From NCBI RefSeq assembly GCF_000384295.1, contig NZ_KB913037.1, forward strand, positions 4,288,868-4,352,867: 64,000 nt of DNA, given 5' to 3'. This stretch comes from Amycolatopsis balhimycina FH 1894 (GTDB taxonomy: Bacteria > Actinomycetota > Actinomycetes > Mycobacteriales > Pseudonocardiaceae). A model generated the notes under the pieces. The model was not told the DNA's origin. It made no database searches and saw only the letters and a list, made by a program, of their open reading frames with translations. This document shows positions 32,520 to 50,444 of the stretch, one piece after another. Position 1 is the stretch's first letter. Every line of letters begins with the position of its first letter. The position numbers and the translations under genes are program-made.

Positions 32520-33005
32520 TCAGCGGCGGACAGCCGAACCCTGCAGTTGCGCCCGCATCTCCGGGGTCAGCTGCTGCCCGACCCGCTCCACCAGCAGGGT
32601 CATCTCGTAGACGACCAGGCCGATGTCACTCTCCGGCGATCCCAGGACCGCCAGGCAGGAACCGTCGGATACCGACATGAGGAAGAGGAAGCCGTTGGCC
32701 ATTTCGACCACGGTCTGCGCCACCGTGCCACCCTCGAACACCTTGGCCGCGCCGCGCGCGAGGCTGGTCAGCCCCGACGCCACCGCGGCCAGCTGGTCCG
32801 CCCGGTCCTTCGGCAAGCCCCTCGAGGCCGCCAGGAGCAGGCCGTCGGCCGACACCACGACCGCGTGGGCCGCGCCGGGCACCCGGTGCACGAAATCCGT
32901 GATCAGCCAAGCGAAGCTGCCGGAATTGTTCGCCTTGGCATGCGCTTGGCCGTTCGGCTGCGCGGAGCCACCCGGCTGCATTGCACCCGCCCGTGTCACT
33001 TTCAC
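32520..33005 (-). CDS. Roadblock/LC7 protein (CvnB of the complete conservon)
   Basis: 161 residues. An N-terminal tail of about 30 residues precedes the roadblock domain ([60 protein letters not shown]). The start overlaps the end of the kinase gene by four bases, implying coupled synthesis. In related systems this component binds both kinase and GTPase. Confidence 0.92.
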
Positions 33006-36000
33006 TCCTCACTGCTGTCTGTGGTGTTGCCACGCCCCGGAACCCTGCTGCCTTCCAGCTGTTCTTCGGCCGGGAGTTCCTTCAAGGCGTGCCGTCCCGA
33101 GGTGTAGCCCCGTTGGAAGCTTGCCATCCGGCTCCGCGCCGCGGACGCCGAGCGGGTGATCGCACCCGTTCCGGGCATACCGGCTCCTGCGTCCGCGAAG
33201 CTGTTCTGGGCCGGTGACTCGGACGTCGAGCTCGGACTGTTGATCGACCCCGGCACCAGGTAGGCGTTCGGGATGCGCTTGGGCAGCCCGGCCGTGGTGA
33301 TCTCCTCGTTCTTGGACTCCAGCAGCGACTGCGCCGCCTGCCAGCCGTCGTCGGAGGCGCTGTGCCAGCCGTCGTCGGCGGGGAGGAGCGGGTGCCGGGT
33401 CGCCGCGGTCGGCTGCAGCTCGTCCGGAGCAGGCGCGGGCGCCGGCGCGGCCGGCGCGGACACGACGGGCGCGGCCGGCTCTGCGGAGCCGGTGAGCGGC
33501 GGCAGGTTCGGGTCTTCACCCGAGCTCTGCGGCGGCACGGGGTCGGCAGCCGAGTCGTCGCCCTCACTGAACCAGCGTGACAGCACCGACTGGTAGATGG
33601 GCAGCCGCCGGGTGGGTACATCGTCTTCGAGGGCCGCCGAGCCTACCTCCGCCGGGGGCGGCGGTGCCGGAGGCGGTTCCTCGGGCGGGACGAACTTCGG
33701 CTCGCGCTTGGGCAGCACCAGCGGCGCGAACTGCGTGTCGTTCGCCCGCGAGCTGGCACCTTCGCCGTTCGGCGACGGCGCCAGCGGCGCCAGGTCCTCG
33801 GCGGTCGGCCAGGCGGGCGTCTCCGGCTTCGGCAGCTCCGGCGACAGGAACGGGCCCGCCGCGCGGCCGCCGCTGACCAGGTCGTCCAGGCTGATCGGCT
33901 GGTCGAGCGGGACCAGCCCGCCCTGGTTCGGCACCGGCTCGTACGACGGCGGAGCCGGGGGCGGCGGTGGCGCCGACGGCGGGGTCTGCGCGAACGTCTG
34001 CGTCTGGTCGAAGTCCGTGCGCGCGGCCGGGATCGGGATGCTCGGCATCGACATCGACGTCTCGGACCGGTTCGCCGGCAGCGGGGTCTGCCGCTGCATG
34101 CCCGGACGGAGGTGGGTCAGCAGCTCGGCCGGGACGACGACGCGGGCGATCACGCCACCCTCGATGTCCTCGTTCTCGCGCAGCCGGACCTCGATGCCGT
34201 GGCGCTTGGCCAGCCGCGAGACCACGTACAGACCCATCCGGCGGGTCACCGACACGTCCAGGTCCGGCGGGTCGGCCAGGCGCGCGTTGACCTCGGCCAA
34301 GCGGTCCTCGCTCATGCCGACACCGTGGTCGGTGACCTGGATGGCCAGCGCCTTCCGGCGGGTCACCACCGCGCGGACGATGACCTTCGTCTCCGGCTCG
34401 GAGAAGTAGGTCGCGTTGTCGAGCAGCTCGGCGAGGACGTGCACGAGGTCGTGGATCGCGAGGCCCTGGACCGCGACGTCGGGCACGATGCCGACCTCGA
34501 TCCGGGCGTACTGCTCGATCTCGGACACCGCGGCGCCGATGACGTCGGCGGCGGGCACCGGCTTGGGCACGGACTTGGCCAGGCCGGCGCCGGAAAGCAC
34601 CAGCAGGGACTCACCGTTGCGCCGCAGCCGCGTCGCGAGGTGGTCGAGCTCGAACAGGCTGGCCAAGTGGTCCGGGTCCTGCTCGTCGGCCTCGAGCCGG
34701 TCGATGACGCCGAGCTGGCGTTCCACCAGCCGCTGCGACCGGCGGGAGAGGTTCACGAAGATGCCGTTGACGTTCTCGCGCAGGAGGGCCTGCTCGGCGG
34801 CCATCTTGACGGCCTGTTCGTGGACGATGTCGAACGACCGCGCGACCTCGCCGATCTCGTCGCGGGAGGTGACGGGCACCGGCTGGACGGCCTTCTTCGA
34901 GGCGCCGACCGGGTCCGGGTCGTCGAGGATGGCCTGCACGGTCTCCGGCAGCCGGGTGTAGGCGACGTCCAGCGCGCTCTTCCGCAGGATCCGCAGCGGG
35001 CGCAGCATCAGGCGGGCGACGACGAGCATCAGCGCGATCGCGGCGGCCAGCGCGGCGAGCACGACGGCACCGCCGATCCAGGCCGAGTTGACCGCGTTCG
35101 TGGCGAGTTCGTCCGCGCGGGTCTTGAGCTGGGCGAGCAGGTTCGACTCGACCGCGTGCAGCTTGTCGGCCGACACCGTGCTGTCCTTGCCGAGCGCGGT
35201 GGTGTCGATGACCGGCGCGGTGCCCAGCTGGGCGTTGGCGAACGCCGCGGTCTGGATCCGGCGGCGGTCGTCGACCTCCGGGCCGGAGTAGGTGTCGTTG
35301 TAGAGCTGGCGCTGGTCGTCGTCGGCGTTCGCAAGGAAGGACGCGACGGAGGCGTCCGCACTGGACGCCGACGCGCGCGTCTGGTCCAGCAGGTCGCCGG
35401 GGAAGTTGCCGCGGTAGGCGGCGATCTGCAGCTCGGTGTCGGAGCGGGTGGTGAACTCCTTGGCCTCGCTGATCGCCTGCGTGCTCGTGCCGAGGCGCAG
35501 CACGTCGCGGTCGGTGACCGCGGTGGTGACCTCGCGGCCGAGCTCGATGAGCGAGTCGAGGACGCCCGAATAGGCGGTCAGCACCGTGATGTCGGGCAGG
35601 CTGTTCTGGGTGTTGAACGCCGCCCGCAGCGGGCGCAGGGCGTCGAGGCGCTGGAGACCGCGGGTGTAGCGGTCCTTGGTCGCCTGGTCGTCGTAGCCGA
35701 GGGTGCTCGCCGCGCCGCGCAGGTCGGCGACCTCGCGGTCGACCTTGGAGATCTGCGCGTCGAGCCCGGTCTGCAGCAGGCCGTTGCTCGAGGAGATCCG
35801 CGCGACGGCCAGCGAGCGTTCGTTCTGCAGCTCGTGCACCACTGTGGTGACCTTGACCGCGAACGCGACCTGGTCGGCGGTGCGCTGGAACTCGGCCGCC
35901 TGCTGGGCGTCGTCGACGACGCGCAGAGCACCCAGCACCGCCGCGGTCAGCGTCGGGATGATCAGGACCGCGGCCAGCTTGGTCCGCAGCCGCCAGTCGC

Positions 36001-36178
36001 GCATGCCGGAGAACAGCCCGGTCTTCCGGCCCGGATCCACTCCGGGCGACTGCGCAGGGGCCCCTCCTACCCCTGCGGCGTCTTCGTTCGGCACCGCCGC
36101 ACCACCATCATCGTTCGAGCTCGTGAAACTCTGATCGGTCCAGCGCCCGCCAGGGCGCATCGCGTTCTCCTCAGCCAC
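33002..36178 (-). CDS. NIT-domain sensor histidine kinase (CvnA of the complete conservon)
   Basis: 1058 residues. Helices at about 66-86 and 366-388 enclose an outside helical domain (about 90-363) of the nitrate/nitrite-sensing NIT type, with [14 protein letters not shown] as the family's N-terminal signature. A HAMP segment (about 390-460) follows. The dimerisation helix contains [13 protein letters not shown] with H513 as likely phosphoacceptor. The ATPase domain has N588 ([10 protein letters not shown]) and D617 (DHGVGM). The last about 370 residues are disordered, Pro-rich, and end with [14 protein letters not shown] and [16 protein letters not shown], tails typical of conservon kinases. 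No response regulator is encoded nearby. Confidence 0.93.
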
Positions 36179-36280
36179 TCGTCTGCACGCTCCCGGCGGT
36201 CCGGCACCCCGGCCGATCGGAGGGAGTCCAGCGCAAGACGCTACCCGTACGGGTTAAAAGATCGTCTTCGACGGGTGTTT

Positions 36281-36314
36281 CTGAACCCCGTCCCACGGGA
36301 CGGAATCGGTTCAG
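36281..36314 (-). promoter_or_regulatory. Structured element in the conservon leader
   Basis: Nested arms: CTGAACC (36281-36287) pairs with GGTTCAG (36308-36314), and CCGTCCC (36288-36294) with GGGACGG (36297-36303). This gives a 14-bp stem with one 4-base bulge and a 2-base loop, about 100 bp before cvnA. It could be a leader structure or a terminator. Confidence 0.5.
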
Positions 36315-36746
36315 CTCGAGCATCACGGTCGGGTCCCTGCGCTGGTCTCGCATCGGTCTGTTGTTCGGCCTAGCCCACCGGCAAGGCGGCTGAGCCCGGC
36401 CAGGCAGTGGCCTCCGCGGGGAAGAGTCGCTCAGGAAAAGCACAGCGTGCCCTGGTAAACCGGGGATCGACTTGATCGGCCATCCAGGCACTCTCTCTCA
36501 CTACATCGGAGGTTGATACCTCCCCGCAGGTGCAGAGGGTAGCGAACGGCCGGGGAAGATGTAACCCTCCCGACAGGACGCGCTGAATGTTGCACAGCGT
36601 TCGCTCAGTCGGCGCACAGCTGGTGGTCTCGGATTCGGAATGTGGGCCCTACGCTGGGTGAACTGCTACGACGAGTGGAGCAGTGGGTCTAGACCAGAGG
36701 CCGAAAGAGTGACGTGCGCCACCCCATCAGGTAGTGATTCCACCCA

Positions 36747-36776
36747 TTGTGAGCAAGCTGTCACGTTCTCTACAGT
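36747..36776 (+). promoter_or_regulatory. Possible promoter of the ABC importer operon
   Basis: TTGTGA (36747-36752) and TACAGT (36771-36776) with an 18-base spacer, 80 bp upstream of the SBP start. Partly overlapping is GTGA...GTCAC dyad symmetry. Confidence 0.4.
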
Positions 36777-36856
36777 GGCCCGCGTGCCTCGCGAATGAGT
36801 CACGCACTTCCGTTGGAATCGGTTCGCCAACCCTCACTTTCTTCAAGGAGCAGGCC

Positions 36857-37879
36857 TTGCTTGGAAACGCCATGAGCAGTGGCCGGGTTCGCACTCGCCG
36901 CGCCGCGCTCGGGCTCGCCCTCACCGTCGCAGCCGTCACAGCCGTCAGCGGCTGCAGCGCGCTCGGCTCGGACAGCTCGAGCGCCTCGTCGAGCGGAGGC
37001 GGCCTGGAGAAGACGAAGATCAAGGTCTCCATCATGCCGACCACGGACCTCGCGCCGTTCTGGCTGGCCAAGGACAACGGCTACTTCAAGGCCGAGGGGC
37101 TCGAGGTCGAGCAGGTCATCGCCAAGAGCGGCCAGGACTCGATGGGGAAGGCGATCGCCGGCGAGGCCGACATCGCCCTCTCGACCTACACGCCGTTCTT
37201 CGTCGCCAAGAGCAAGGGCACGGCGGACATCCAGCTGGTCGCCGACGGCACGTCGGTCAACGCCAAGAGCAACGCGATCGTCACGGTGCCCACTTCGCCG
37301 GTGAAGACGGTCAACGACCTGGCGGGCCGGCGGATCGCGATCACCGCGCTGAACACCGCGTCGGACATCCTCACCAAGTCGGTCATGAAGGACCACAACG
37401 TCGACTACAGCAAGGTCACCTGGGTCCCGGTCCAGCTGCCGAACATGGCGGCGGCGTTGAAGGACAACCAGGTGGACGCGGCCTACATGCCGGAGCCGCA
37501 GCTGTCCCAGGCGGCGAAGGTCGTCGGGGCCACCCCGGTCATCGACGTCAACACCGGCGCCACCCAGGACTTCCCCCTGACCGGCTACGGCGCGATGACG
37601 AAGTGGGTGCAGGCCAACCCGAAGACGCTCGCCGCCTTCCAGCGCGCGATGAAGAAGGCCACCAGCGAAGCGCTCGCCGACCGCTCGAAGGTCGAGCCGC
37701 TGCTGGTCAAGTACGCGAAGATCGACGAAGACACCGCCAAGCTGCTGACCCTGCCCGGTTACGGCTCCGTCCTGGACGCCCGGCGCCTCCAGCGCGTCCC
37801 GGACCTGCTGCTGCAGATGGCCGTCATCACCAGCAAGGTCGACGCCGCGCCGATGATCGCCCCGCAGGCGACCAACTAA
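36857..37879 (+). CDS. ABC transporter substrate-binding lipoprotein, NMT1/SsuA-like (nitrate/sulfonate/taurine group)
   Basis: 340 residues if started at the TTG at 36857, which has a perfect AAGGAG six bases upstream; the ATG at 36872 would be 21 bases away. The signal ends in the lipobox TAVSGC. The domain has TDLAPFWLAKDNGYFKAEGL and GEADIALSTYTPFF, the classic NMT1/SsuA pattern. The ligand is likely a small oxyanion or an organic compound such as a sulfonate or a thiamine precursor; the motif set does not decide. It begins the SBP-permease-permease-ATPase operon and is divergent from the NIT kinase. Confidence 0.9.
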   Translation: MLGNAMSSGRVRTRRAALGLALTVAAVTAVSGCSALGSDSSSASSSGGGLEKTKIKVSIMPTTDLAPFWLAKDNGYFKAEGLEVEQVIAKSGQDSMGKAIAGEADIALSTYTPFFVAKSKGTADIQLVADGTSVNAKSNAIVTVPTSPVKTVNDLAGRRIAITALNTASDILTKSVMKDHNVDYSKVTWVPVQLPNMAAALKDNQVDAAYMPEPQLSQAAKVVGATPVIDVNTGATQDFPLTGYGAMTKWVQANPKTLAAFQRAMKKATSEALADRSKVEPLLVKYAKIDEDTAKLLTLPGYGSVLDARRLQRVPDLLLQMAVITSKVDAAPMIAPQATN

Positions 37880-37880
37880 A

Positions 37881-38651
37881 GTGACAAAACTGCTCCGCGG
37901 CCTGGCCGGCCTGGTCGGCTTCCTCCTGTTCTGGGAGGTCGCCGACCAGGTCGGCCTGGTCAGTAAGACGTTCGTCCCGCCGCCGAGCGTCGTCCTGGTC
38001 AGCCTCGTGAACCTGCTGGGTGACGCGCAGTTCGTCCGCGACATCGTCGCGACCATGCTCGCCTGGCTGATCGCGATCGCCATCGCCATCGCCATCGCGG
38101 TGCCCGCCGGGCTGCTGCTGGGCAGCATCCCGGTGCTGCGTACCACCACCGCCGCGATCGTCGAGTTCCTCCGCCCGATCCCGGTCGCCGCGCTCGTCCC
38201 GCTGGTGCTGCTGGTGATCGGCTCCGGGCCCGAAGCGAAGATCAGCCTCGCGGTGTACGCCTCGCTCTGGCCGATCATGTTCAACACGATCTACGGGATG
38301 AACGAGATCGACCCGGTGCTCATGGAGACCGCGCGTGCGTGCGGCACCAGCCGGTTCCGCATCCTGTCGTCGGTCGCGCTGCCCCAGACCGCGCCGTTCG
38401 TCTTCACCGGCATCCGGCTGTCCGCGACGATCGCGCTGATCGCCGTCGTCAGCACCGAGTTCCTGGCCGGCTCGGAAGTCGGGCTCGGCAGCTACATCCT
38501 GCTCGTCAGCACCGGCTCGACCCGGTTCGACCTGGTCTTCGCCAGTACGCTCGTGGCGGGAGCACTGGGATACGTGATCAACGAAGGGCTCGAACAGGTC
38601 GGCAAGCGGCTGTTCCGGTGGAGCTCGGTCGACCGGGAGGCGATCGCGTGA
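37881..38651 (+). CDS. ABC transporter permease 1 (SsuC/TauC-like)
   Basis: 256 residues starting at GTG one base after the SBP stop. About six membrane helices; the EAA loop is METARACGTSRFRILSSVALP. A run of Ile-Ala repeats (AIAIAIAIA) forms the second helix. It is probably one half of a heterodimeric channel with the next gene. Confidence 0.88.
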   Translation: MTKLLRGLAGLVGFLLFWEVADQVGLVSKTFVPPPSVVLVSLVNLLGDAQFVRDIVATMLAWLIAIAIAIAIAVPAGLLLGSIPVLRTTTAAIVEFLRPIPVAALVPLVLLVIGSGPEAKISLAVYASLWPIMFNTIYGMNEIDPVLMETARACGTSRFRILSSVALPQTAPFVFTGIRLSATIALIAVVSTEFLAGSEVGLGSYILLVSTGSTRFDLVFASTLVAGALGYVINEGLEQVGKRLFRWSSVDREAIA

Positions 38652-39481
38652 CGGCAGCGACTCTTTCGGGCCGGGTCGGCAGGCGCGCCGCGCGCGGTGC
38701 CGCGACGGTCCTGCGCAACTGGCTCTTGTTCGCGATCCTCGTGGTCGTCTGGGAGTTCGCCGCCCGGGCCGGCGGCAGCAAGTTCTTCCCCCCGCCGACG
38801 GAGATCGCGGTCGCCGCCGCCAAGCTGTGGTTCACCGGGCCCGCGTCGCAGCTGTTCCTCACCGACACGGTGTTCGTCAACGTGGTCCCCAGCCTCGGCC
38901 GGATGCTCGGCGGCTGGGCACTGGCCGCTGTCGCCGGCATCGTGCTCGGCGTGCTGATCGGCCGGTCCGCGCGGGCGCTGGACTACGTCGGCCCGCTGTT
39001 CGCGTTCTTCCGCTCGATCCCGCCGCCCACGCTGATCCCGGTGTTCGGGGTCCTGTTCGGACTGAGCTCGGGCATGCAGATCGGGTCGATCATCTTCGGC
39101 GCGGTGTGGCCGGTGCTGCTCAACTCCGTCGACGGCGCCCGCTCGGTCGACCAGGTCAAGGTGGAGACGGCCCGGTCGTTCCGCACGCCCCGCGGGTACT
39201 GGCTCGGCATGGTGGTGCTGCCGGCGGCGGCGCCCAAGATCTTCGCCGGGCTGCGGGTGAGCCTGTCCATCTCGCTGCTGCTGATGGTGATCTCCGAGCT
39301 GGTCGGCGCCTACCACGGCATCGGCCGGTCGCTGATGGACGCCCAGCAGAACTTCGAGTTCCCCACCATGTGGTCGTGGCTGGTGCTGCTGGGCATCCTC
39401 GGTTACGTCTTCAACATGATCTTCCTGGCCGCGGAGCGGCGGGTCCTGGCCTGGCAGCCGACCCGCCTCGGCCGCGACTGA
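38648..39481 (+). CDS. ABC transporter permease 2 (SsuC/TauC-like)
   Basis: 277 residues from a GTG overlapping the first permease stop (GTGA). About six membrane helices; the EAA loop is VETARSFRTPRGYWLGMVVLP. It differs clearly from permease 1, so the channel is likely heterodimeric, in contrast to the homodimeric SsuC. Confidence 0.88.
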   Translation: MTAATLSGRVGRRAARGAATVLRNWLLFAILVVVWEFAARAGGSKFFPPPTEIAVAAAKLWFTGPASQLFLTDTVFVNVVPSLGRMLGGWALAAVAGIVLGVLIGRSARALDYVGPLFAFFRSIPPPTLIPVFGVLFGLSSGMQIGSIIFGAVWPVLLNSVDGARSVDQVKVETARSFRTPRGYWLGMVVLPAAAPKIFAGLRVSLSISLLLMVISELVGAYHGIGRSLMDAQQNFEFPTMWSWLVLLGILGYVFNMIFLAAERRVLAWQPTRLGRD

Positions 39482-39502
39482 CGCCCGCGAAAGGCCTCTC
39501 CT

Positions 39503-40363
39503 ATGTCGACCATGCTCGAAGTTTCCGGCCTCAGCCACACCTACGGCAGCGGCGCGAAGGCCCACACCGCGGTGAACAACCTGTCGTTCACCGTCGAGGC
39601 CGGGCAGCTGGCCAGCATCGTCGGGCCGTCGGGCTGCGGGAAGTCGACGCTGCTGCGGTGCGTCGCCGGGCTGACCCCGCCGACCGAGGGCACGGTGAGC
39701 CTGCACGGCGACCGCGTCTCGGGCGTGCCGGACGACCTCGCCGTCGTGTTCCAGGACTACAGCCGTTCGCTGTTCCCGTGGCTTTCGGTGCAGAAGAACG
39801 TCGAGTTCCCGTTGCGGTGGCGATCGATTTCGAAGGCGGAGCGGCGGAAGCGGGCGGCCGAGGCGCTGGAGCAGGTCGGGCTTTCCGGCGTCGGCGGGAA
39901 GTACCCGTGGCAGCTGTCGGGCGGCATGCAGCAGCGGGTGTCGATCGCCCGCGCGCTGGCCAGCCGCCCGGCGCTGCTGCTCATGGACGAGCCGTTCGCG
40001 TCGGTCGACGCCCAGACGCGGTTCGAGCTCGAAGACCTCACCCGGCGCGTGCAGCGTGAGCAGGGCAGCACGATCCTGGTTGTCACGCACGACATCGACG
40101 AGAGCGTCTACCTGTCCGACCGGGTGCTGGTGCTGTCGAAGTCGCCGGCGTCGATCGTCGCGGACCTGCCCGTCGGACTGCCCGCCGAGCGCGACCAGAT
40201 CACCACGCGCGAGTCGGCGGAGTTCGTGACGCTGCGCGGCGAAGTCGCCCGGCTGCTGCACGGCGGCAGCCCGGTCGAGGCGGCCGAGGCCGCGTCCGAC
40301 GCCGCGGAATGGGAGCTGGCGGAGCACGCCTCGGACGTGACGGAGAGCAGGACCCGGAGCTGA
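39503..40363 (+). CDS. ABC transporter ATP-binding protein (SsuB/TauB-like)
   Basis: 286 residues. Walker A GPSGCGKST, Q-loop QDYSRSLFPW, signature LSGGMQQR, Walker B LLLMDEPFASVD and switch His THDIDES are all intact. It energises the two permeases before it. Confidence 0.92.
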   Translation: MSTMLEVSGLSHTYGSGAKAHTAVNNLSFTVEAGQLASIVGPSGCGKSTLLRCVAGLTPPTEGTVSLHGDRVSGVPDDLAVVFQDYSRSLFPWLSVQKNVEFPLRWRSISKAERRKRAAEALEQVGLSGVGGKYPWQLSGGMQQRVSIARALASRPALLLMDEPFASVDAQTRFELEDLTRRVQREQGSTILVVTHDIDESVYLSDRVLVLSKSPASIVADLPVGLPAERDQITTRESAEFVTLRGEVARLLHGGSPVEAAEAASDAAEWELAEHASDVTESRTRS

Positions 40364-40441
40364 CCCGGCGGGCCCTCGGAAAGAAATCCGGGTGGCCTGT
40401 CGGATCGGGGCGGTGGGCCCGGCACGGCTGAGCCGTTTCGT

Positions 40442-42028
40442 TCAGTACGACAACGCGTGGGTCGGCGCGACCCGGACGTGCACCAGCGTCGGGCGCGGGT
40501 CGGCGAGTGCCGCGGCGAGGCCGGCCGCCAGGCCGGACGGCTCGGTGATCGTCACGCCCTGGCAGCCCATGCTGCCCGCCAGCGCGACGAAGTCGATGCC
40601 GCCCAGTTCGGTGCCCGGCAGCTTCACGCCGCCGATCGTGTCACCGAGGAGGCGGACCGCCGCGTACTCCGAGTTGTCGAAGATCACGAACGTCACCGGC
40701 AGCTGCTTGCGCGCCGCCGTCCAGAGACCCTGGATGCCGTACATGCTCGAGCCGTCGCCGACCACGGCGACGACCTTGCGGTCCGGCCGGGCGAGCGCCG
40801 CGCCGACCGCGCCCGGGATGCCGTAGCCGAGCGTGCCGCTGGCCATCGTCAGGAACCCGGAGCCGGTGGTGGTGATCGGCAGGTGCTCGTGCAGGCTCCC
40901 GCGGTGGCTGGGCGCCTCCTCGACGACCAAGGCGTTGTCCGGCAACAGGTCCGCGAGCGTGGCGTAGAGGAATTCGCCGGTGAGCGTCTCACCGCTGGGC
41001 TTGGCGGGCCGCGGCCGCGGCGCCGGCGCGGGCCGCGTGCTCCGCTCGACGACGTTGAGCAGCGCGCGGATGCCCAGCTTCGGCGTCGCGCGGATGCCGG
41101 TGCCTTCGAAGGCCCGGGCGAGGATCTGTTCGTCGTCGCTGAGGATGAACAGCGGCGGCAGCGGAGCGTCCCCGCGTCCACGGTCGACGTGGTAGGTGAA
41201 GGCGGGCGCGCCGAGCACGAGAACGAGGTCGTGCTTTCCGAGCGCGTCGGCGACGGCGCCGCGTTCGGGCTCCAGGAACCCTTGGAACAGCGGGTGGTTC
41301 TCGGGGAACGAGCAGCGGTAGGACATCGGCGCGACCCACACACCGGCGTTGAGGCGTTCGGCGAGCGCGACGGTTTCCGGGACGGCACTGTCCTGATCGA
41401 CGGCTCCCCCGACGACGATCGCCGGCCGCTGCGCGCCTTCCAGCGCGGCGTTGAGCTCGTCGATGGCCTCGGGATCCGGCGCGAAGCCGCGGATGCGGGG
41501 CCGCGAGATGACGGGCCGTTCGGTGGGAACGGTCCAGTCGTCGGCCGGAACGGAAACGAAAACCGGACCGGACGGCGCCTGCGTCGCGACGTGGTAGGCC
41601 CGCGCCAGCGCGGCCGGGACGTCCTCGGCGGTCGCGGGCTCGATCGACCACTTGACGTACGGCTTGGGGAACTCGGGGGCATCCATCGCACCGAGGAACG
41701 GTTCGTGCGGCAGAAGCGACCGGACCTGCTGCCCGGCGACGATGATCAGCGGCGACCGGTTGCGGTAGGCGGTGAAGAGGCTGCCGAGGCTGTGCCCCAC
41801 CCCGCCCGCGGAATGCAGGTTGACCAGCACGGCCTGCCGGGTGGCCTGCGCATAGGCATCGGCCATCGCGACGACGGTGGATTCCTGCAGGCCCAGGACG
41901 TAGTCGAAGTCGTCGGGCCAGTCGGTGAGGAACGGCACCTCGGTGGTGCCGGGGTTGCCGAACACCGTGGTGAGACCGAGTTCGCGGAGCAGCTCCCGGG
42001 TGGCGTCCAGCACCGTGCGCTTGATCAT
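40442..42028 (-). CDS. Thiamine-diphosphate enzyme, benzoylformate decarboxylase-like
   Basis: 528 residues, the same size as benzoylformate decarboxylase (BFD) of Pseudomonas putida. The cofactor glutamate is E49 (LGLQES). Active-site histidines H72 (NLHSAGG) and H280 (FTYHVDRG) match BFD H70 and H281. BFD S26 is replaced by Thr28 (GNPGTTE). The ThDP motif is GDGSSMYGIQGLW. It probably decarboxylates an aromatic 2-oxo acid; the Ser-to-Thr change may alter substrate or reaction. The neighbouring importer could supply a substrate, but there are no mandelate pathway genes. Confidence 0.85.
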   Translation of the reverse strand: MIKRTVLDATRELLRELGLTTVFGNPGTTEVPFLTDWPDDFDYVLGLQESTVVAMADAYAQATRQAVLVNLHSAGGVGHSLGSLFTAYRNRSPLIIVAGQQVRSLLPHEPFLGAMDAPEFPKPYVKWSIEPATAEDVPAALARAYHVATQAPSGPVFVSVPADDWTVPTERPVISRPRIRGFAPDPEAIDELNAALEGAQRPAIVVGGAVDQDSAVPETVALAERLNAGVWVAPMSYRCSFPENHPLFQGFLEPERGAVADALGKHDLVLVLGAPAFTYHVDRGRGDAPLPPLFILSDDEQILARAFEGTGIRATPKLGIRALLNVVERSTRPAPAPRPRPAKPSGETLTGEFLYATLADLLPDNALVVEEAPSHRGSLHEHLPITTTGSGFLTMASGTLGYGIPGAVGAALARPDRKVVAVVGDGSSMYGIQGLWTAARKQLPVTFVIFDNSEYAAVRLLGDTIGGVKLPGTELGGIDFVALAGSMGCQGVTITEPSGLAAGLAAALADPRPTLVHVRVAPTHALSY

Positions 42029-42335: not shown

Positions 42336-43985
42336 TCAGCCGATCAGGCCCGACAGCCCGCTCGCCTTGAACGAACCCCAGCCCGTCACCTGGTCGTACC
42401 CCGTCCCGGCGGTGAACCCGGTCGTGCCGTGGAGGGTGTTGTTGCCCGTCGTCACGTCGTGGAAGCCCGTGCCGTACGAGGACCCGTTGCCGATCGAGTA
42501 GAACTTCGGGTTCAGGTTGCCCAGCGCGCCGCCGTGGACCTGGTTCTGCAGCGCCGCGAACGCCGCCCACAGCGGGGTCGCGCCCGACGTGCCGCCGACC
42601 GTTTCCCAGCTGCCCGCCGAATAGATGTAGTAACCCGACGTCGGCGAGGCGTCCGCCGCGACGTCCGGCACCTTGCGGTAGGTCGTGCTCTGCGAGGACT
42701 GCCACGAAGGTGCCGTGAAGACCGTCGAAATGCCGCCGCCGGTCGAGCCGCCGTTGTTGCCGTCGTTCCAGGTCGACTCGCTGCTGTAGCCGTTGGACGA
42801 CGTCACGTTCAGCTTCGTGCCGCCGACACCGGTGATGTTCGGGCTCGACGCCGGGAAGTCCACTCCGCGCGCCGTCGAACCCGTCTGGCGGTAGCAGTCG
42901 GTCGTGCCGTCGTCGCCCGCGGCGGCGAAGTACGAGATGCCCTCCGCGGTGCCGGTCGCGACCGCGCTGCTGACGCTCTTCGCCGCGCTCGAACCCTCCG
43001 AGGCTTCGCAAGCGCCCCAAGAGATCGAGACGACGTCGACCGTCGCGTCCGACGCGATCTTCTGGTACATCGCCAGTTCGCCGGCGCCCGAGTTCGGTGC
43101 CTCGTAGACGTAGTCGTTCGCCGCGGCGGCCACCGCGTGCACGACCTCGATGTCGAGCTCGACCTCGACCTGGCCGTCGCCCGGCGACGAGTCGTAGTTC
43201 GCGCCGCTGACCCCCACCGTCGTCACCGAGCCCGCCGAGAGCCCGTAGGTGCTGTCGTACTTGGTGATGTTCGACTTCTGGTACCCGTCGAACTCGACGA
43301 AGCCGACGTTGACGCCACTGCCGGTCGCGGAGAGAGCGCTGGTGCCGTAAGCGGTTTTGAGCACCGGCGGCGTCGCGGACTTGACGACGTTGGGCTGGGC
43401 GAGCGGCTTCGCCGAGTGCGTCCGCACCGCGTGGTCGTCGAGGCCGACGACGTTGCCCACGACGTCCGAGACGCCCGCGGGCACGGCGGGCGCGGCGTCG
43501 TTGGCGAAGAAGTCACGCCCGGAAACCCGGTCGTGGTAGGTCCCGATCCGGGTGCGGAACGCCGATTCGAGCTGCGCTGCCGAGCCGGTGAACGTGATGG
43601 CCTGCCGGTTGCCGGAAACCTCGATCCCGGTGGCACCCGATTTCCCGAGGAATGAGACGGCCTTGTCGACATCGGCCTGGGTCGGGCCGAACCGGGCATT
43701 GAACTGCGCCGGCGTCAGGAAGTGGTGATATTGCGGCGAAGCGGGATTCTGCACGTCGGCGAGGAACTTTTCCAAAGCCTGCTGGTTGTGCAGTTTCAGC
43801 GAGAGCGCGGCGGTGATCGGCCGGTCGGTCGCGACGTCGCCGGTGCGCTCGCTGTTGACCAGCGGCGCGGCGTTGTCGGCCAGCGTGACCAGGGGTTCCG
43901 GCGCGGCGGCGGCCGGGACGGCCACGGCGAGGCCGAGCAACGCAGGCAGCGGCACAGCGGCCGCGACGAGCTTGCGCAAGCGCAT
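42336..43985 (-). CDS. Secreted S53 peptidase (sedolisin/kumamolisin family)
   Basis: 549 residues. A Sec signal (about 1-27) is followed by the pro-kumamolisin activation domain (about 30-185, with SPQYHHFLTPAQFNARFGPT). The catalytic domain has E274 and D278 (QVEVELDIE), the oxyanion Asp in AAAGDDGTTD, and nucleophile S467 in GGTSGATPLWA. Near the C-terminus DVTTGNN and GYDQVTGWGS form the calcium site. It is an acid-active endopeptidase that removes its own propeptide outside the cell. Confidence 0.94.
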   Translation of the reverse strand: MRLRKLVAAAVPLPALLGLAVAVPAAAAPEPLVTLADNAAPLVNSERTGDVATDRPITAALSLKLHNQQALEKFLADVQNPASPQYHHFLTPAQFNARFGPTQADVDKAVSFLGKSGATGIEVSGNRQAITFTGSAAQLESAFRTRIGTYHDRVSGRDFFANDAAPAVPAGVSDVVGNVVGLDDHAVRTHSAKPLAQPNVVKSATPPVLKTAYGTSALSATGSGVNVGFVEFDGYQKSNITKYDSTYGLSAGSVTTVGVSGANYDSSPGDGQVEVELDIEVVHAVAAAANDYVYEAPNSGAGELAMYQKIASDATVDVVSISWGACEASEGSSAAKSVSSAVATGTAEGISYFAAAGDDGTTDCYRQTGSTARGVDFPASSPNITGVGGTKLNVTSSNGYSSESTWNDGNNGGSTGGGISTVFTAPSWQSSQSTTYRKVPDVAADASPTSGYYIYSAGSWETVGGTSGATPLWAAFAALQNQVHGGALGNLNPKFYSIGNGSSYGTGFHDVTTGNNTLHGTTGFTAGTGYDQVTGWGSFKASGLSGLIG

Positions 43986-44152
43986 GGGGGGATTTCCTCT
44001 CGGCGGTGGGGACCGGGCCTGCGTGGAATGCTCGCCGCAGGTTGCCGAGAAGCATAAGAACCCATGATCACGCCGAGAACCTACTTTTGTCTGGGCTTCC
44101 GGCGGATCCCATTTTCATTTTCCGAGTGGTTTACCTCGCCATAACGCAACCA

Positions 44153-45115: not shown

Positions 45116-45159
45116 GGCAGCCCTCCGTCCGTAGAGAGCTGCCGATCGGGCAGCTCCGC

Positions 45160-45372
45160 TCATTCCCCGCCGGGCCAGGCCGGAGCCCGCTCCTTCGAGG
45201 CGCTGGCACCGGGGAGGACCCCGGCGGCGGTCAACACCACACCGGTGGCGGTTTCCGCGATCTTGACGGCGGCCAGCACGCCGGTCAGGGCGAGCGACCC
45301 ACCGAGCCCCAGTTTCGCGAACTCGTCTTCGGACGTTTCGGTCCGGCGTTGACGCGGTACCATTGCAGTCAC
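45160..45372 (-). CDS. Small protein with one hydrophobic segment, unknown function
   Basis: 70 residues from the GTG at 45372 (GGAAGG seven bases upstream); an ATG at 45438 would give 92 residues. It is charged at the start (VPRQRRTETSEDEF), followed by a hydrophobic stretch LGLGGSLALTGVLAAVKIAE and a second apolar patch. It ends 44 bp before the TPR gene and is probably co-transcribed with it. Confidence 0.5.
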   Translation of the reverse strand: MTAMVPRQRRTETSEDEFAKLGLGGSLALTGVLAAVKIAETATGVVLTAAGVLPGASASKERAPAWPGGE

Positions 45373-45872
45373 GATTCGACCTTCCGGCTCGTTCCGGACG
45401 AACTCGGCCGATACCCACGAGGAATCAGGCGCCCCCATGTGTCAGAAATCCACCGGATGGCCGGAGTTCTGGTTTCCCGATGGCTTCTCATCGAATTGAC
45501 CGCGAACCGAATACGCGCGCCCACAGCGCTGCCTCCGCCCTAGTCGAACAATTCTTGACACCATTCGAGTGAACAGCGACCCGTTCATCGCACACCGGCT
45601 CGCCCAGCCGCCAGTCGTCACTGTTTCACGGCTTCACTTCTACGATAGCCAGCACCTGCCGGACCATCAGCCCCCAAGCAGCCCAACCACCGCACTGCAC
45701 GTGCGACCGCACAGGCGAAGACGCCCCGGCATCAGCACAAGGCGGCTGCAATTTCATCGGAACGATTCAGAAAACGAATACTGGTATAGCCGGTTGGCGA
45801 ATAGCGTAATGTTCGCCAACCGGCTGCGAATTTCGGCGGCAACCTCGTCTCGCATACGGCTTCCGCAGTCGC
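45373..45872. other. 500-bp less GC-rich intergenic region
   Basis: Composition is clearly less GC-rich than the surroundings. Short frames exist but none has a ribosome-binding site or a recognisable product. The hairpin at 45788-45825 is the only clear structure. Confidence 0.5.
45788..45825 (-). terminator. Terminator after cutC
   Basis: Perfect 14-base arms (45788-45801 and 45812-45825) with a 10-base loop, about 50 bp after the cutC stop on the minus strand. Confidence 0.7.
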
Positions 45873-46550
45873 TCAAGACTTGACGAGGTCCACCCAGGTG
45901 CGCACCGTTTCGGCGTCGACGGCCGCCTGCCAGCCGCCGGGCCGCACCGCACTCCCGACATGGAACCCGCGCACCCCGCCCGCGCGCAAGAGGTGCACCT
46001 GCTGGGCGCGCAGCCCGCCGCCCACGAGCAGGTCCGGCCCGCTCTCGCGCTGCGCGAGCCGCTGCAGCACCGAAAGCCCGCTGGCGACGCCGCTCGGGTG
46101 GCCGGCGGCGAGCACGGTGTCGCACCCGAGGGAGGCCAGCCGGTCGTACGCGCGCAGCGGATCGCGCGTGCGGTCGATGGCGCGGTGGAACGTCCAGGGG
46201 AGGCCGTCGATCTCCTTGATCAGCGCCTCGCAGGCGTCGAGGTCGATCTCGCTGTCGACGGTGAGGAACCCGAAGACGAATTCGCGCGCGCCCGCGTCGA
46301 CCAGCCGGGCGGTGTCCGCGCGCAGCCCTTCGAGGTCGCCGATGGCGAAGGAACCGTTGTCCCGCAACATGACCCGGACCGGGAGGTCGGTCGCCGACAG
46401 CACGTCACGCAGGGTTTCCACCGACGGCGTCAGGCCGTCCTGCGCCATGTCCGCGACCAGTTCGAGGCGGTCCGCCCCGCCCGCCTGCGCGCCTTCGGCA
46501 TCCGCCGCGTCCAGCGCGATCACTTCCAGCAGGGGCGTCTTCGAGCTCAT
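45873..46550 (-). CDS. cutC: CutC-family protein
   Basis: 225 residues, TIM-barrel CutC family. Characteristic pieces are LEVIALDAADAEGAQAGGAD followed by RLEL, VRVMLRDNG, FVFGFLTVDSEID, WTFHRAIDR and GGGLRAQQV. The family name comes from copper tolerance, but a copper role is not firmly shown. The gene ends the transcript that begins with the second NIT kinase; the spacer between kinase stop and cutC start is 12 bp. Confidence 0.9.
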   Translation of the reverse strand: MSSKTPLLEVIALDAADAEGAQAGGADRLELVADMAQDGLTPSVETLRDVLSATDLPVRVMLRDNGSFAIGDLEGLRADTARLVDAGAREFVFGFLTVDSEIDLDACEALIKEIDGLPWTFHRAIDRTRDPLRAYDRLASLGCDTVLAAGHPSGVASGLSVLQRLAQRESGPDLLVGGGLRAQQVHLLRAGGVRGFHVGSAVRPGGWQAAVDAETVRTWVDLVKS

Positions 46551-46562
46551 GCCTCATCCGTT

Positions 46563-49292
46563 TCACTGGTTCCGGGTGTCGTCTCCCCTCGCGTGCCGCC
46601 CTCGCCGGAAGCCGCCTTGAAGGCTCGTCATCCGCTCGCGCACCGCTTCCGGGGAAAGAGAGAGTATCGGCCGCTGCGCTGGCACCGCTCCCGGGCTCGC
46701 CGCCGAATCGACGGTCTGCAGGAACGGCCAGGTGTCCTCGGCGCCGTCCTCCTGCTCCAGTTCGGCCGGGCTCGGCCACTGGTAGTCGGGTTCGACCGCG
46801 GCGGGCGGCGCGACGGGCGCGAGCTGCGGCTCGGTGTCTTCGTCGTCCGGGTTCGGCTCGGTCACCACCGGATCGGGCGACCGCAACGGCGGGGGTGGTG
46901 GAGGCGGCGGCGGGGGTGGCGGCGTGGCGAGCGCGTGCCGCGGCTGGGCCACGCCCGGCCGTGGCTCATCGGCGACGGGGAGCGGCTCCGCCTGCCGCCG
47001 CGGCTGTTCGGGCGCCGCGGACGCGTCGAACCAGCGGGACAGGACGTCGCGGTAGGCGGGCATCCGCTCGGTCGGCGCGTCGAGGTCGAGGTGGACGTCG
47101 CCGTCGGCGGCGGGCCATTCCGGCGCGTGCTCGCGCGCCACCACCGGGGCCCGGCGAGGCGGGCCCGCCTCGATCGACGGCGGCGTCAGCTCCTCGGGCT
47201 CCGGCTCCGGCGGTTCCGGTTCCACCGGGGTGAGCGGCGCGAGCGGGGCCAGCAGCTCGGGTTCCACGTCGGGAGTGCGCTGCGGCTCGGCGGGCGGAGG
47301 CGGCGCGGGCATCGGCGGCAGCTCGACGATCAGGCCCGCGGGCACCAGCACGGTCGCGACCAGCCCGCTGTCCGCCCCCGCGCTCAGGCTGACGTCGATG
47401 TGGTGGCGCATGGCCAGTGTCGCGACGACGAACAGGCCCATCCGGCGCGACACCTCCACGTCGACGTCCGGCGGGTGCGCGAGCCGCGCGTTGGTGCGGT
47501 CGATCTCGGCCTTCGGCATGCCGGCGCCGTGGTCGATGATCTCGATCTGCCAGTCGCCGTCGTGGGTTTCGGCGCTGGCCACGGTGACCGGTTCCTTGCC
47601 GGAGTAGCGCGTCGCGTTCTCCAGCAGCTCCGAAATGACGTGCACGAGGTCGTTGACGGCCTCGCCGCGGACCGCGACCTGCGGGGCCGGGCCGAGCTCG
47701 ATCCGCTGGTAGTGCTCGACCTCCGAGAGCGCGGCGCCGATGATCTCGTCGGCCGGGACCGGGCCGGCGTCCTCCCGCGCCGAGTCCTGACCGGACAGCA
47801 CCAGCAGGTTTTCGCTGTTGCGCCGCATCCGGGTCGCGAGGTGGTCGAGCTCGAACAACCCCGCGAGGGTGTCCGGGTCCTGCTCGTCGGCCTCCATCCG
47901 GTCGAGCACCGTGAGCTGCCGCTCGACGAGGTCCTGGCTGCGCTGCGAGAGGTTGACGAACATCGCGTTGACGTTCTCGCGCAGCATCGCCTGTTCGCCG
48001 GCGAGCCGGACGGCTTCGCCGTGGACGGCGTCGAACGCGCGCGCCACCTGACCGAGCTCCTCGCGCGTGAACACCGGCACCGGCGCGACGGCGAGCCGTT
48101 TCCGCAGGTTTTCGGGGGCGGGCTCGGGATCGGTGAGCAGGTTCTGCACGGCGGCGGGCAGCCGGTGCTCGGCCACTTCGAGGGCCGTCCGGCGCAGGAT
48201 CCGCAAGGGGCGCAACAGGGACCGCGCGATGACCACCGACAGCACGCCGGCGACGAGCAGGACGCCGAGCACCGCGCCGCCGTCCCAGAGCGCGGCCGTA
48301 CGGGCTTGCGCCGCCAGGGCGTCCGTGCGTTCCTGCAACTGGACCAGCAGCGCCTGCTGCACTTGGTGGGCGAGGTTCACCGTGTGCGTCGCCGAGACGT
48401 CCCACTGGTTCGGGTCGAGGCCCGAGAGGTTCTGGCCGTTTTCGGTGCGGGTGAGCGCGGACTCGACGATGTCGTTGCCGATGTCGACGACCAGGCCGAT
48501 CACCGTGTCGTCGAACATCCGCTGCTGCTCGGGCGTCGCGAAGGTGCGGTAGTCGCTGCGCGCGGCGGCCAGCTCGGCTTCCGCGCCGAGCAGGGCGCGC
48601 GTGCGGTCGCGGTCGAGGGTGCCCGCGGCGAGCGCCTCGGCCATCACCGCCCGCTTGACCGACATCTGGTCCTTGATCCGGGCGAGCGCGTTGCCCGCCA
48701 GCCGCATCCGCGCGAGCTCCGGGTCGGAGACGTCGGCGGCGGCGGAGTCGCTGATGTCGAGCAGACCGGAGATCAGCTCGCTGTAGGAGCGCAGCACGGC
48801 GTCGGCGGGGAACGCCGAATGCTCCGCGGAGTACCGGAGGCCGCCGAGCACACGCAGCCGGTCGTCGGTCTGCTGCAGGCTTTCGGCGGCCTTCGCGTCG
48901 AGCCGCGGCTTGCTGTCGGTGAGGGTCCGCTCGAACTTGCCGATCGCCTGGTCGACGCGGTTGCGCTGGGCGGCGAGCTCGGCCGTGTCGCCCTGCCGGT
49001 TCTGGGCGACGAACCGGACGGTGAGGTCGCGCTCGCGCTGCAGCTCGTGCAGACCTTCGGCGACCGTGTTGTCGACGCGGCCGCGCGTGGCGAACTCCGC
49101 GAGCTGCTGGGCGTCACGCAGGTCCGAGCTGATCCGCAGCCCGACGAGCGCGATCACGGCGAGTGCGGGAATCAGGAGGACGGCGAAGAGCTTCGTGCCG
49201 AGGCGCCAGTTGCGCAGCCGCCACCGGCCGCCCGCCGGACGTGGTCCCGCCGCGTCACCGCCCTTGCGGGGACGCTTGTCGCGACGGGTCAC
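46563..49292 (-). CDS. Second NIT-domain sensor histidine kinase, without conservon partners
   Basis: 909 residues from the GTG at 49292 (AAGGA seven bases upstream); an ATG at 49340 is possible. Helices at about 33-53 and 337-358 flank a NIT-type outer domain with LQRERDLTVRFVAQ. HAMP and dimerisation parts follow, with H483 in [13 protein letters not shown]. The ATPase has N559 (ELLENATRYS) and D587 (DHGAGM). The tail is Pro-rich, with a run of about twelve prolines, and ends RMTSLQGGFRRGRHARG, like the first kinase. It lacks the GLPKR motif of that kinase. No roadblock, DUF742 or GTPase gene is beside it; cutC follows instead. Confidence 0.92.
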   Translation of the reverse strand: MTRRDKRPRKGGDAAGPRPAGGRWRLRNWRLGTKLFAVLLIPALAVIALVGLRISSDLRDAQQLAEFATRGRVDNTVAEGLHELQRERDLTVRFVAQNRQGDTAELAAQRNRVDQAIGKFERTLTDSKPRLDAKAAESLQQTDDRLRVLGGLRYSAEHSAFPADAVLRSYSELISGLLDISDSAAADVSDPELARMRLAGNALARIKDQMSVKRAVMAEALAAGTLDRDRTRALLGAEAELAAARSDYRTFATPEQQRMFDDTVIGLVVDIGNDIVESALTRTENGQNLSGLDPNQWDVSATHTVNLAHQVQQALLVQLQERTDALAAQARTAALWDGGAVLGVLLVAGVLSVVIARSLLRPLRILRRTALEVAEHRLPAAVQNLLTDPEPAPENLRKRLAVAPVPVFTREELGQVARAFDAVHGEAVRLAGEQAMLRENVNAMFVNLSQRSQDLVERQLTVLDRMEADEQDPDTLAGLFELDHLATRMRRNSENLLVLSGQDSAREDAGPVPADEIIGAALSEVEHYQRIELGPAPQVAVRGEAVNDLVHVISELLENATRYSGKEPVTVASAETHDGDWQIEIIDHGAGMPKAEIDRTNARLAHPPDVDVEVSRRMGLFVVATLAMRHHIDVSLSAGADSGLVATVLVPAGLIVELPPMPAPPPPAEPQRTPDVEPELLAPLAPLTPVEPEPPEPEPEELTPPSIEAGPPRRAPVVAREHAPEWPAADGDVHLDLDAPTERMPAYRDVLSRWFDASAAPEQPRRQAEPLPVADEPRPGVAQPRHALATPPPPPPPPPPPPLRSPDPVVTEPNPDDEDTEPQLAPVAPPAAVEPDYQWPSPAELEQEDGAEDTWPFLQTVDSAASPGAVPAQRPILSLSPEAVRERMTSLQGGFRRGRHARGDDTRNQ

Positions 49293-49412
49293 CTGGTTTC
49301 CTTTTCCGCCACGGGCGGGAACCCGCGGATCGAACGACACTCGAACCTACTGAACGGTAGCCCGCCCCATGAAGATCCGAAAGCCGCGCTGGCACGATAC
49401 GGCCCTGCCCGC

Positions 49413-49440
49413 GATCGTATGGGGCCCGGACCATACGATC
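49413..49440. promoter_or_regulatory. Inverted repeat between the second NIT kinase and its SBP
   Basis: GATCGTATGG (49413-49422) and CCATACGATC (49431-49440) are perfect 10-base arms eight bases apart, an operator-like arrangement in a 186-bp divergent spacer. Confidence 0.6.
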
Positions 49441-49445
49441 CAGCA

Positions 49446-49462
49446 CGAGAATCAAATTCTCG
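49446..49462. promoter_or_regulatory. Second inverted repeat in the same spacer
   Basis: CGAGAAT CAA ATTCTCG, seven-base perfect arms, 17 bases before the SBP start. Its position overlaps the leader, so it may act as operator or RNA hairpin. Confidence 0.5.
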
Positions 49463-49478
49463 CGGTAGGTGAAGGGTC

Positions 49479-50444
49479 ATGATCAGACGCGGACGGACGA
49501 TTCCGCTGGTAGCGGCGCTTCTGGCGACCGCGGGCTGCAGCATGTTCTCTTCCGGCGGCACCGCGTCCCCGCCGCCGCTGGAACGGACCACCCTCCGCAT
49601 CGGAGTGGGCAACGCCATCGACACGGCCCCGCTGCGGATCGCCGTGGCGGCCGGGAAGTTTGGTTCCGCGGGGCTGAACGTGCGGCTCGTCGAGCTCGGC
49701 GCCGACGACGGGCTGGCGAAGCTGGCCTCCGGCGACCTCGACGTCACCTTCGCCTCCGACATCGCCATGTTCCGCGCCGCGGCCGGCGGGGCGGCGTTGC
49801 AGCTGCAGGGCGAGGCCTACACGGCCGGCCCCAACACGATGGCCCTGGTCACGCTGCCGGACTCCGGCTACACCGTGCCGACGGGGAAGAAGGCGCCCGA
49901 GATCGCGGTGAACATGCTCGACGACATCGGTGCGCTCGTCGCGCGTTCGGTGCTGGGCACGGCGGGCGTCGACGAAGCGAAGATCAAGTTCACGGCGGTG
50001 CCGTTCGACCGGATGCCGCAGGCTCTGCAGGCGGGCGACGCCGACGCGGCGCTCATGATCGAGCCGTACATCACCCGTGCCGAGAAGGACCTCGGCGCGC
50101 ACATTCTGGCCGACGGCGCCCGCGGTTCGACGCTCGGCTTCCCGCTGTCCGGCTACGCGTCCGCCAAGCCGTTCGCGCAGGCCAACCCCCGTACGCTCAC
50201 GGCGTTCCGCACCGCGCTGGGCGCGGCCCAGCAGAGCGCGACGGACCCGGCGACCGTGCGCGACGCGCTGCCGAAGTTCTCAGACATCGACCCGACCACG
50301 GCCGCGCTGATCTCGCTCGGCTCGTACCCGGCGTCGCTCAACGGCATCCGGCTCCAGCGCGTCGCCGACCTGATGCACAACTCCGGCCTGCTGGCCAACC
50401 GCCTCGACGTCCAGGCGCTGCTCCCCGACCGGACCGGTTACTAG
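49479..50444 (+). CDS. Orphan substrate-binding lipoprotein, NMT1-like
   Basis: 321 residues. Lipobox LLATAGC. The domain resembles the SBP at 36857-37879: ASGDLDVTFASDIAMF corresponds to its GEADIALSTYTPFF, GFPLSGYASAKPFAQANPRT to its DFPLTGYGAMTKWVQANPKT, and both contain GIRLQRVADL or RRLQRVPDL. No permease or ATPase gene is near, so it either borrows another transporter or serves as a receptor for the divergent kinase. Confidence 0.88.
   Translation: MIRRGRTIPLVAALLATAGCSMFSSGGTASPPPLERTTLRIGVGNAIDTAPLRIAVAAGKFGSAGLNVRLVELGADDGLAKLASGDLDVTFASDIAMFRAAAGGAALQLQGEAYTAGPNTMALVTLPDSGYTVPTGKKAPEIAVNMLDDIGALVARSVLGTAGVDEAKIKFTAVPFDRMPQALQAGDADAALMIEPYITRAEKDLGAHILADGARGSTLGFPLSGYASAKPFAQANPRTLTAFRTALGAAQQSATDPATVRDALPKFSDIDPTTAALISLGSYPASLNGIRLQRVADLMHNSGLLANRLDVQALLPDRTGY

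Follow-up and report, generated by a model that had tools for sequence, protein, structure and literature searches.

Introduction

Conservons, the actinobacterial G-protein systems (AGPS), combine a CvnA-type kinase with a CvnB roadblock protein, a CvnC protein of the DUF742 family and a CvnD GTPase, and the accessory proteins described in the accessible part of the 2026 CvnF8 paper, CvnE (P450) and CvnF (GAF), are reported there with CvnA proteins that have no NIT domain (PMC13343842). The same text calls conservon sensory inputs largely unexplored and the ligands of NIT-type CvnA proteins untested, and the terms "substrate-binding", "solute-binding" and "ABC transporter" do not occur in it. 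Here we analyzed a stretch of 64,000 nucleotides (the window) from Amycolatopsis balhimycina FH 1894 (contig NZ_KB913037.1, positions 4,288,868 to 4,352,867), in which two NIT-domain kinases, K1 and K2, each stand head-to-head with an NMT1-like lipoprotein of the substrate-binding protein (SBP) type, SBP1 and SBP2, respectively. The locus shares with described conservons a NIT-type CvnA, the CvnB roadblock, CvnC DUF742 and CvnD GTPase proteins and, as we propose, an accessory that acts on the kinase, but in this case a NIT-containing CvnA is paired with an extracytoplasmic lipoprotein. We consider it rather probable that the SBP serves as an extracytoplasmic ligand-binding co-receptor of the conservon receptor, a model in which the contact and the ligand are the parts that we infer.

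Kinases that are activated by an SBP encoded beside them are a known kind, according to the consulted part of one source (PMC11113362). The nearest functional parallel is CuaD-CuaSR, where, as far as the accessible text goes, a sensor SBP (CuaD) occurs beside an importer SBP (CuaA), like SBP2 and SBP1 (PMC10384115). AioX (PMC5908839) and XylFII-LytS and LuxPQ (PMC11113362) likewise have, in the parts of these sources consulted, an sbp gene adjoining the kinase gene. An actinobacterial SBP in signalling is also represented by the mycobacterial aspartate-specific SBP that controls protein kinase G, a Ser/Thr kinase, and the consulted part of that source mentions no conservon (PMC6069109). The SBPs, permeases and ATPase of the window resemble those of TauABC/SsuABC/NtrABC-type importers, but their NCBIfam scores fall under the curated cut-offs (SBPs, permeases and the listed ATPase families) and there are two different permease genes. 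The kinases of CuaD-CuaSR, AioX, XylFII-LytS and LuxPQ drive response regulators, whereas those described here come with a roadblock/GTPase set and a NIT ectodomain. No SBP paired with a conservon receptor was found among the papers listed in the searched literature, from which subscription journals were largely absent, in agreement with the original prediction for this locus; SBP-assisted kinases and conservons are known separately, and their combination would be new.

Results

Two kinase–SBP pairs in the window

The window is part of a genome of 10.86 Mb in one contig, and the genes of the two pairs are as follows.

33002..36178, minus strand: K1, CvnA-type NIT kinase (Pfam NIT 124.9 bits, HATPase_c, weak HAMP)
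32520..33005, minus strand: B, roadblock/LC7 protein of CvnB type (PF03259, 91 bits)
31712..32515, minus strand: C, DUF742 protein of CvnC type (PF05331, 102 bits)
31123..31827, minus strand: D, small GTPase of CvnD type (PF03029 ATP_bind_1; GTP_EFTU under cut-off)
36872..37879, plus strand: SBP1, NMT1/SsuA-like lipoprotein (NMT1 107 bits; lipobox VSGC)
37881..38651, plus strand: ATP-binding cassette (ABC) importer permease 1 (PF00528; SaoP/TauC/SsuC-like, under cut-offs)
38648..39481, plus strand: ABC importer permease 2 (PF00528; SaoP/NtrB/TauC-like, under cut-offs)
39503..40363, plus strand: ABC importer ATPase (PF00005)
46563..49340, minus strand: K2, NIT kinase (Pfam NIT 145 bits, HATPase; no B, C or D adjoining; no LPxR motif)
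49479..50444, plus strand: SBP2, NMT1-like lipoprotein (NMT1_2 56 bits; lipobox TAGC)

Coordinates, strands and Pfam matches confirmed that the head-to-head pairing of a NIT kinase with an NMT1-like lipoprotein occurs twice. The Pfam matches also bore out K1 as a complete conservon kinase, with NIT ectodomain and HATPase and with B, C and D directly behind, divergent from an SBP with a full importer; the open reading frame of SBP1 is open from 36734, and the ATG at 36872 is the likelier start. SBP2 is head-to-head with K2 and has, as predicted, no transporter gene adjoining it in the window. The two SBPs are 32% identical over 306 amino acids (aa) and have the FPLxGY..QANP and RLQRVxDL motifs in common, as had been noted, and K1 and K2 are 42% identical over 640 aa. 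The C20 of SBP2 was almost invariant in a 42-row SBP alignment, and its nearest named relatives are from Amycolatopsis species, with A. vastitatis at 96% identity. Both SBPs scored under the curated cut-offs of TIGR01728 (163.5; SBP1 99 bits, SBP2 61 bits) and TIGR01729 (304; SBP1 57 bits, SBP2 29 bits). The C-terminal tail shared by the kinases, which had been put forward as a further link between the pairs, is present but not pair-specific: a strict pattern matched 45 of 70 kinases of paired loci, similar tails occur among 12 unpaired NIT kinases (for example at L010, L011 and L054), and the tail was rejected as pairing evidence.

Pairing across genomes

The family survey covered 60 genomes of 46 genera at E <=1e-20, with at least 150 NIT matches (56 genomes) and 125 listed SBP matches (54 genomes); NITs with weaker scores, the L012 type among them, are under-represented in it. 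This survey of SBP–NIT adjacency, which the original prediction had proposed, revealed that 63 of the 150 listed NIT matches had an SBP 5'-to-5' within 2.5 kb of the NIT domain, compared with 0.059 such pairs expected from uniform placement, and chance adjacency was rejected. The conserved sbp–kinase adjacency by which SBP-activated kinases are recognized was thereby found, among the matches listed, in 52 of the 60 genomes. All 28 SBP matches at least 45% identical to SBP2 were paired, as were 66 of the 125 listed SBP matches overall. In a control with DUF742 (nine genomes, 60 matches over the cut-off; three weaker NITs and the L012 SBP of the source genome added by hand), an SBP lay within ~9 kb for 14 of 34 matches behind a listed NIT and for 0 of 26 others (Fisher p 1e-4).

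The class survey comprised 197 genomes, 27 of which had an SBP match at 1e-30 (our own included), with 41 places outside our own genome; 20 stretches covering 23 of these places were fetched, and kinases were recognized by BLAST, not Pfam. In eight stretches (L102-L109; seven genomes, two other families), the SBP gene diverges from the gene for a K1/K2-like kinase that is accompanied by conservon genes. The remaining 12 (L110-L121, weaker SBP matches) showed no conservon, and 9 of them have an importer; because of these loci, the pairing is a property of one SBP clade, not of NMT1 SBPs at large.

Closer to the window, a K2 homologue faced SBP2 in all 14 named Amycolatopsis loci (L122-L135; the kinase gene runs off the contig in L123 and L126, and only part of it was called in L129). 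The locus is an old one: the double arrangement of the window recurred in twelve other genomes (L039-L050), with SBP2 present in eight of them by tblastn; the other four (L039, L046, L049 and L050) gave SBP1-level matches only, and the listed whole-genome matches held no closer SBP2 relative. SBP1 is tandemly duplicated in L040 and L042.

The source genome contains eight NIT matches, three of them SBP-linked (two in the window, plus L012), and the fetched stretches of the five other NIT loci held no such SBP. L012 (3743-10659) is a one-strand operon, SBP-permease-ATPase-NIT kinase-B-C-D, whose SBP is ~25% identical to SBP1; SBPs of this type were listed at six places in the 60 family genomes at E 1e-50, five of which (L012, L136-L139) have the seven-gene operon, absent at L140. 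Since both divergent pairs and L012-type operons occur, there are at least two forms of association between SBPs and NIT conservons. In L099 (8124-12028) and L100 (8128-11968), an SBP gene lies directly 5' of a NIT kinase gene on the same strand, with a 4-base overlap as called, and an importer and a further SBP are located upstream.

As a separate observation, two further SBP1-like proteins of the source genome do not stand beside a NIT kinase: one (72% identical to SBP1; L032, 8091-9062) stands alone, and the other (56%; L033, 8558-9538) lies 5' of a different ABC operon.

Co-divergence of SBP and NIT ectodomain

Over 62 pairs, with L012 excluded as outgroup, SBP distances correlated at r 0.77 with those of the NIT ectodomain and at 0.47 with those of the kinase's catalytic core, and the NIT correlated with its own core at 0.44. 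In a genome bootstrap the SBP-NIT value ranged over 0.67-0.84 and the SBP-core value over 0.36-0.58, the former being larger in all 1000 replicates. Within the SBP2 clade (n=20 with the B gene called), SBP-NIT reached r 0.92. The 13 orthologous SBP1 loci gave 0.87 for SBP-NIT, 0.90 for NIT-permease and 0.93 for core-B, and 0.48 for NIT-core; because the first three are high and the last is low, two blocks co-diverge, with SBP, NIT and permease on the outside and core, B, C and D on the inside. Where a genome has two pairs, the matching of NIT to SBP agreed in 61 of 66 comparisons and that of core to SBP in 49 of 66.

In orthologues of K2, the root-to-tip length of the NIT was 0.71-1.19 in the four without SBP2 and 0.32-0.53 in the nine with it, and that of the core was 0.31-0.37 and 0.25-0.52, respectively; NIT and core were the parts compared. 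End branches of the NIT separated the SBP2-less kinases from the others completely on a fixed core topology (p 0.0014) and almost completely on a joint topology (p 0.0098), and core end branches exhibited no difference (p 0.53, 0.47). The NIT ectodomain, not the core, changes faster when SBP2 is gone, and we weighed this result most of all.

The region between K2 and SBP2 contains one further feature.

49413..49440, no strand: perfect inverted repeat GATCGTATGG-N8-CCATACGATC with 10-bp arms

The arms are identical in 17 of 17 genus loci (the window, the 14 named loci, L040 and L042), the spacer bases differ, and a genome-wide scan with the 9-bp-arm pattern, allowing up to 3 mismatches, gave no other site; the repeat was absent from the 18 scanned loci of other genera. 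The repeat may be an operator or overlapping divergent promoters, and TACGAT in its arms could provide two divergent -10 elements. Together with the head-to-head gene order, this conserved repeat would fit a shared control of transcription and hence the explanation that the conservon is only co-regulated with the importer or SBP genes, by controlling them or sharing a promoter with them, with the SBP making no contact with the receptor and the ligand, or some other signal, bound by the NIT itself. Part of the co-divergence could also stem from a ligand that SBP and NIT share without touching each other, and NIT kinases beside nitrate genes that have no SBP in their stretch (L051-L053, below) presumably bind their ligand directly. 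Co-regulation by itself, however, leaves unexplained why the NIT and not the core tracks the SBP, why the NIT speeds up without SBP2, and why SBPs are kept without an importer beside them, and we regard it as unlikely, though the least unlikely of the alternatives to a co-receptor.

SBPs without an importer

Among 57 family loci (the window, L012, L039-L050 and L059-L101), an importer ATPase was present in 35 and missing from 22. In L091, one of the 22, permeases appear where the stretch ends; the other 21 fetched loci contained an SBP and a NIT kinase and no importer gene in the stretch. Fourteen of these importer-free loci face a complete K-B-C-D set and seven face K-B-C without D. A relative of permease 1 was detected at E 1e-25 in 21 of 25 genomes (21 with SBP2-type loci plus 4 controls); four SBP2-type genomes (G006, G017, G029 and G036) had none at this threshold, and in 8 of the 21 the sole relative was under 40% identical.

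These counts bear on transport-coupled sensing, in which the NIT kinase, like transporter-linked kinases, would sense permease and SBP together as an importer complex. Permease 1 tracks the NIT as well as the SBP does in the 13 orthologous SBP1 loci, L012 and its relatives encode importer and kinase in a single operon, and a close permease is encoded elsewhere in 9 of the 21 SBP2-type genomes. The importer-free loci and the four genomes without a permease-1 relative speak against it, and we hold this explanation to be improbable.

What NIT and SBP might bind

The NIT of K2 matched NasR (PDB 4akk), a nitrate-sensing NIT-ANTAR protein, by sequence (E 0.0011). In NasR, E175 and R176 are predicted to contribute to the nitrate pocket, according to the consulted part of the source (PMC7496416). 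Mapped onto the NITs with an assumed 27-residue tag offset, this E-R pair occurred in 2 of the 62 NITs that are paired with an SBP; among 12 unpaired NITs, 4 had it (L051, L052, L053 and L055). The corresponding residues are S-D in K1 and K-R in K2. The first pocket arginine, which we take to be the other nitrate contact, was kept in all 62 paired NITs and is, being universal, uninformative; the second was kept in 27 of 28 SBP2-clade NITs and 8 of 34 SBP1-clade NITs. Nitrate sensing as the default for paired NITs was rejected, and because the pocket pair is altered in 60 of 62, these domains are probably not nitrate sensors.

A different NIT conservon, with the E-R pair kept, lies divergent from nitrate/nitrite assimilation genes in L051, L052 and L053 (genomes G019, G057 and G016). 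The neighbours are NasC-like (L051, L052), NirB-like (L051, L053, the two tested) and NarK-type (3 of 3) proteins, with scores under curated cut-offs, and no SBP was found in the fetched stretches; these are likely true nitrate-sensing conservons.

Two other genes lie beyond the importer, the first of them coding for an enzyme.

40442..42028, minus strand: benzoylformate decarboxylase, a thiamine-diphosphate (TPP) enzyme (NF005485 685 bits, above the equivalog cut-off of 493; PDB 1bfd family)

The second (42336-43985) codes for a 549-aa protein with a pro-kumamolisin activation domain and no peptidase domain match in Pfam. A decarboxylase homologue was present in 8 of the 13 double-arrangement loci (window counted) and in 13 of the 57 fetched family loci. 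Genes of aromatic-acid metabolism stood near related SBPs in 5 of the 12 conservon-free loci, namely protocatechuate 3,4-dioxygenase in L112 (importer not in view) and L120, gallate dioxygenase in L113, 3-carboxyethylcatechol dioxygenase in L121 and an arylmalonate-decarboxylase-like protein in L118; no ring-cleavage gene was named in the other seven. Together with the decarboxylase, these neighbours suggest aromatic acids as the ligand class. Assignment of a substrate from the SBP sequence alone was dropped, since PDB relatives are weak and mixed.

The original prediction had favoured nitrate, nitrite or another small oxyanion, a ligand to which the name of the NIT domain, the conserved first arginine and the second arginine of the SBP2 clade would point. 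The scarcity of the E-R pair among paired NITs and of the second arginine in the SBP1 clade, the retention of the pair in conservons beside nitrate genes, and the decarboxylase and aromatic-acid neighbours leave this proposal unsupported and, in our estimate, very improbable.

The probable partners of K2

K2 had been described as a kinase without B, C and D partners. None adjoins it, and a BLAST comparison with the reference set revealed no second D between 28 and 52 kb; a second B and a second C, however, lie behind conservon 1, whose gene order on the minus strand is K1, B, C, D and then these two.

30303..30719, minus strand: B', second roadblock protein (PF03259, 80 bits)
29262..30296, minus strand: C', second DUF742 protein, with the domain at its C-terminal end (PF05331, 111 bits)

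A second roadblock gene behind D was found in ten related loci (L039, L041 and L043-L050), those of 12 whose stretch reaches there. Seven other loci (L060, L071, L079, L087, L089, L095 and L098) exhibited a K2-type kinase followed by B and C without D, and the kinase tree placed these seven D-less kinases in one clade with the K2 group of the window. In the C tree, which is built on a short alignment and has long branches, C' grouped with the C proteins of D-less loci in a set of 19 (11 C', 7 D-less, 1 other) with a Shimodaira–Hasegawa-like approximate likelihood-ratio support (SH-aLRT) of 95. A clade of C' with five D-less rows was not rejected by the approximately unbiased (AU) test (p-AU 0.74); the candidate origin of C' as a tandem copy of C was set aside, a clade of C' with the first C being disfavoured, if barely (p-AU 0.044). 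The B tree was less clear, with most B' near L071/L098 and the B' of L050 with other D-less loci. Because C' falls with the C proteins of D-less, K2-type loci of other genera, the partners of K2 are probably B' and C', now located behind D.

An LPxR motif has been noted in the C-terminal extension of conservon kinases, and adjacent duplicated conservons, one without its GTPase, are also on record in the accessible part of the same source (PMC4316618). K1 has the motif in this extension (LPKR twice) and K2 does not. LPxR was found in 13 of 13 K1 and 37 of 37 other kinases, versus 2 of 13 K2 and 2 of 7 D-less kinases (Fisher p 2e-12, relatedness ignored), although chance matches to so short a motif are possible. 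Given the D-less relatives and the lack of LPxR, the K2 arm seems once to have had its own GTPase and to have become separated from it.

Discussion

The results are consistent with a model in which a membrane-anchored NMT1-type lipoprotein would bind a small organic molecule, possibly an aromatic carboxylate, and, once closed, dock on the helical NIT ectodomain of a CvnA-type kinase. Docking would change the kinase core and thereby pass a signal through CvnB (roadblock) and CvnC (DUF742) to the GTPase CvnD. SBP1 would both signal and feed the adjoining importer, and SBP2 would be a sensor-only copy. Physical docking, ligand class and direction of the signal are what we infer here. The original proposal that SBP and NIT receptor act together stands as a functional link, strongly supported by conservation of the pairing, SBPs kept without an importer, co-divergence with the NIT and acceleration of the NIT without SBP2. 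Its second part, a signal through the kinase to the roadblock/GTPase complex, is plausible for K1 with its complete set and doubtful for K2, since K2 has neither an adjoining GTPase nor LPxR.

Several observations weigh against a co-receptor. Linked genes share their history, so matching trees alone prove little, and we do not claim congruence as proof. SBP and NIT evolve fast and core, B, C and D more slowly (median distances: SBP 1.33, NIT 1.62, core 0.49), which may inflate the contrast between NIT and core; the importer ATPase, a conserved cytoplasmic protein, also tracks the NIT (0.78, n=30). The SBP2-less kinases number only four, and since two come from one genus and all group in the NIT tree, the independent events may be fewer than four. 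No divergent listed NIT lay within 2.5 kb of 59 of the 125 listed SBP matches, all under 45% identical to SBP2, and a rearranged importer in L044 leaves SBP1 out of the head-to-head position with K1. The permeases encoded elsewhere in nine SBP2-type genomes, 49-57% identical, could serve SBP2.

An extension of the co-receptor model, which we offer tentatively, is a two-armed SBP-gated receptor, in which an importer-linked and a sensor-only co-receptor, each on its own NIT kinase, might converge on one GTPase. The K2 arm (K2-B'-C'), having lost its own GTPase and LPxR, would act on the K1 conservon via B'/C' or mixed kinase dimers. If so, the cell would compare the external ligand with the ligand that it is taking up.

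A purifiable SBP partner turns the question of conservon input into a ligand screen, the ligand of the SBP probably being the signal. If the co-receptor model is true, a G-protein output would join the known signalling uses of binding proteins, and NIT specificity could be read from the neighbours, nitrate genes going with an E-R pocket and SBPs with its absence. It would also provide a handle on regulation in Amycolatopsis-type actinomycetes.

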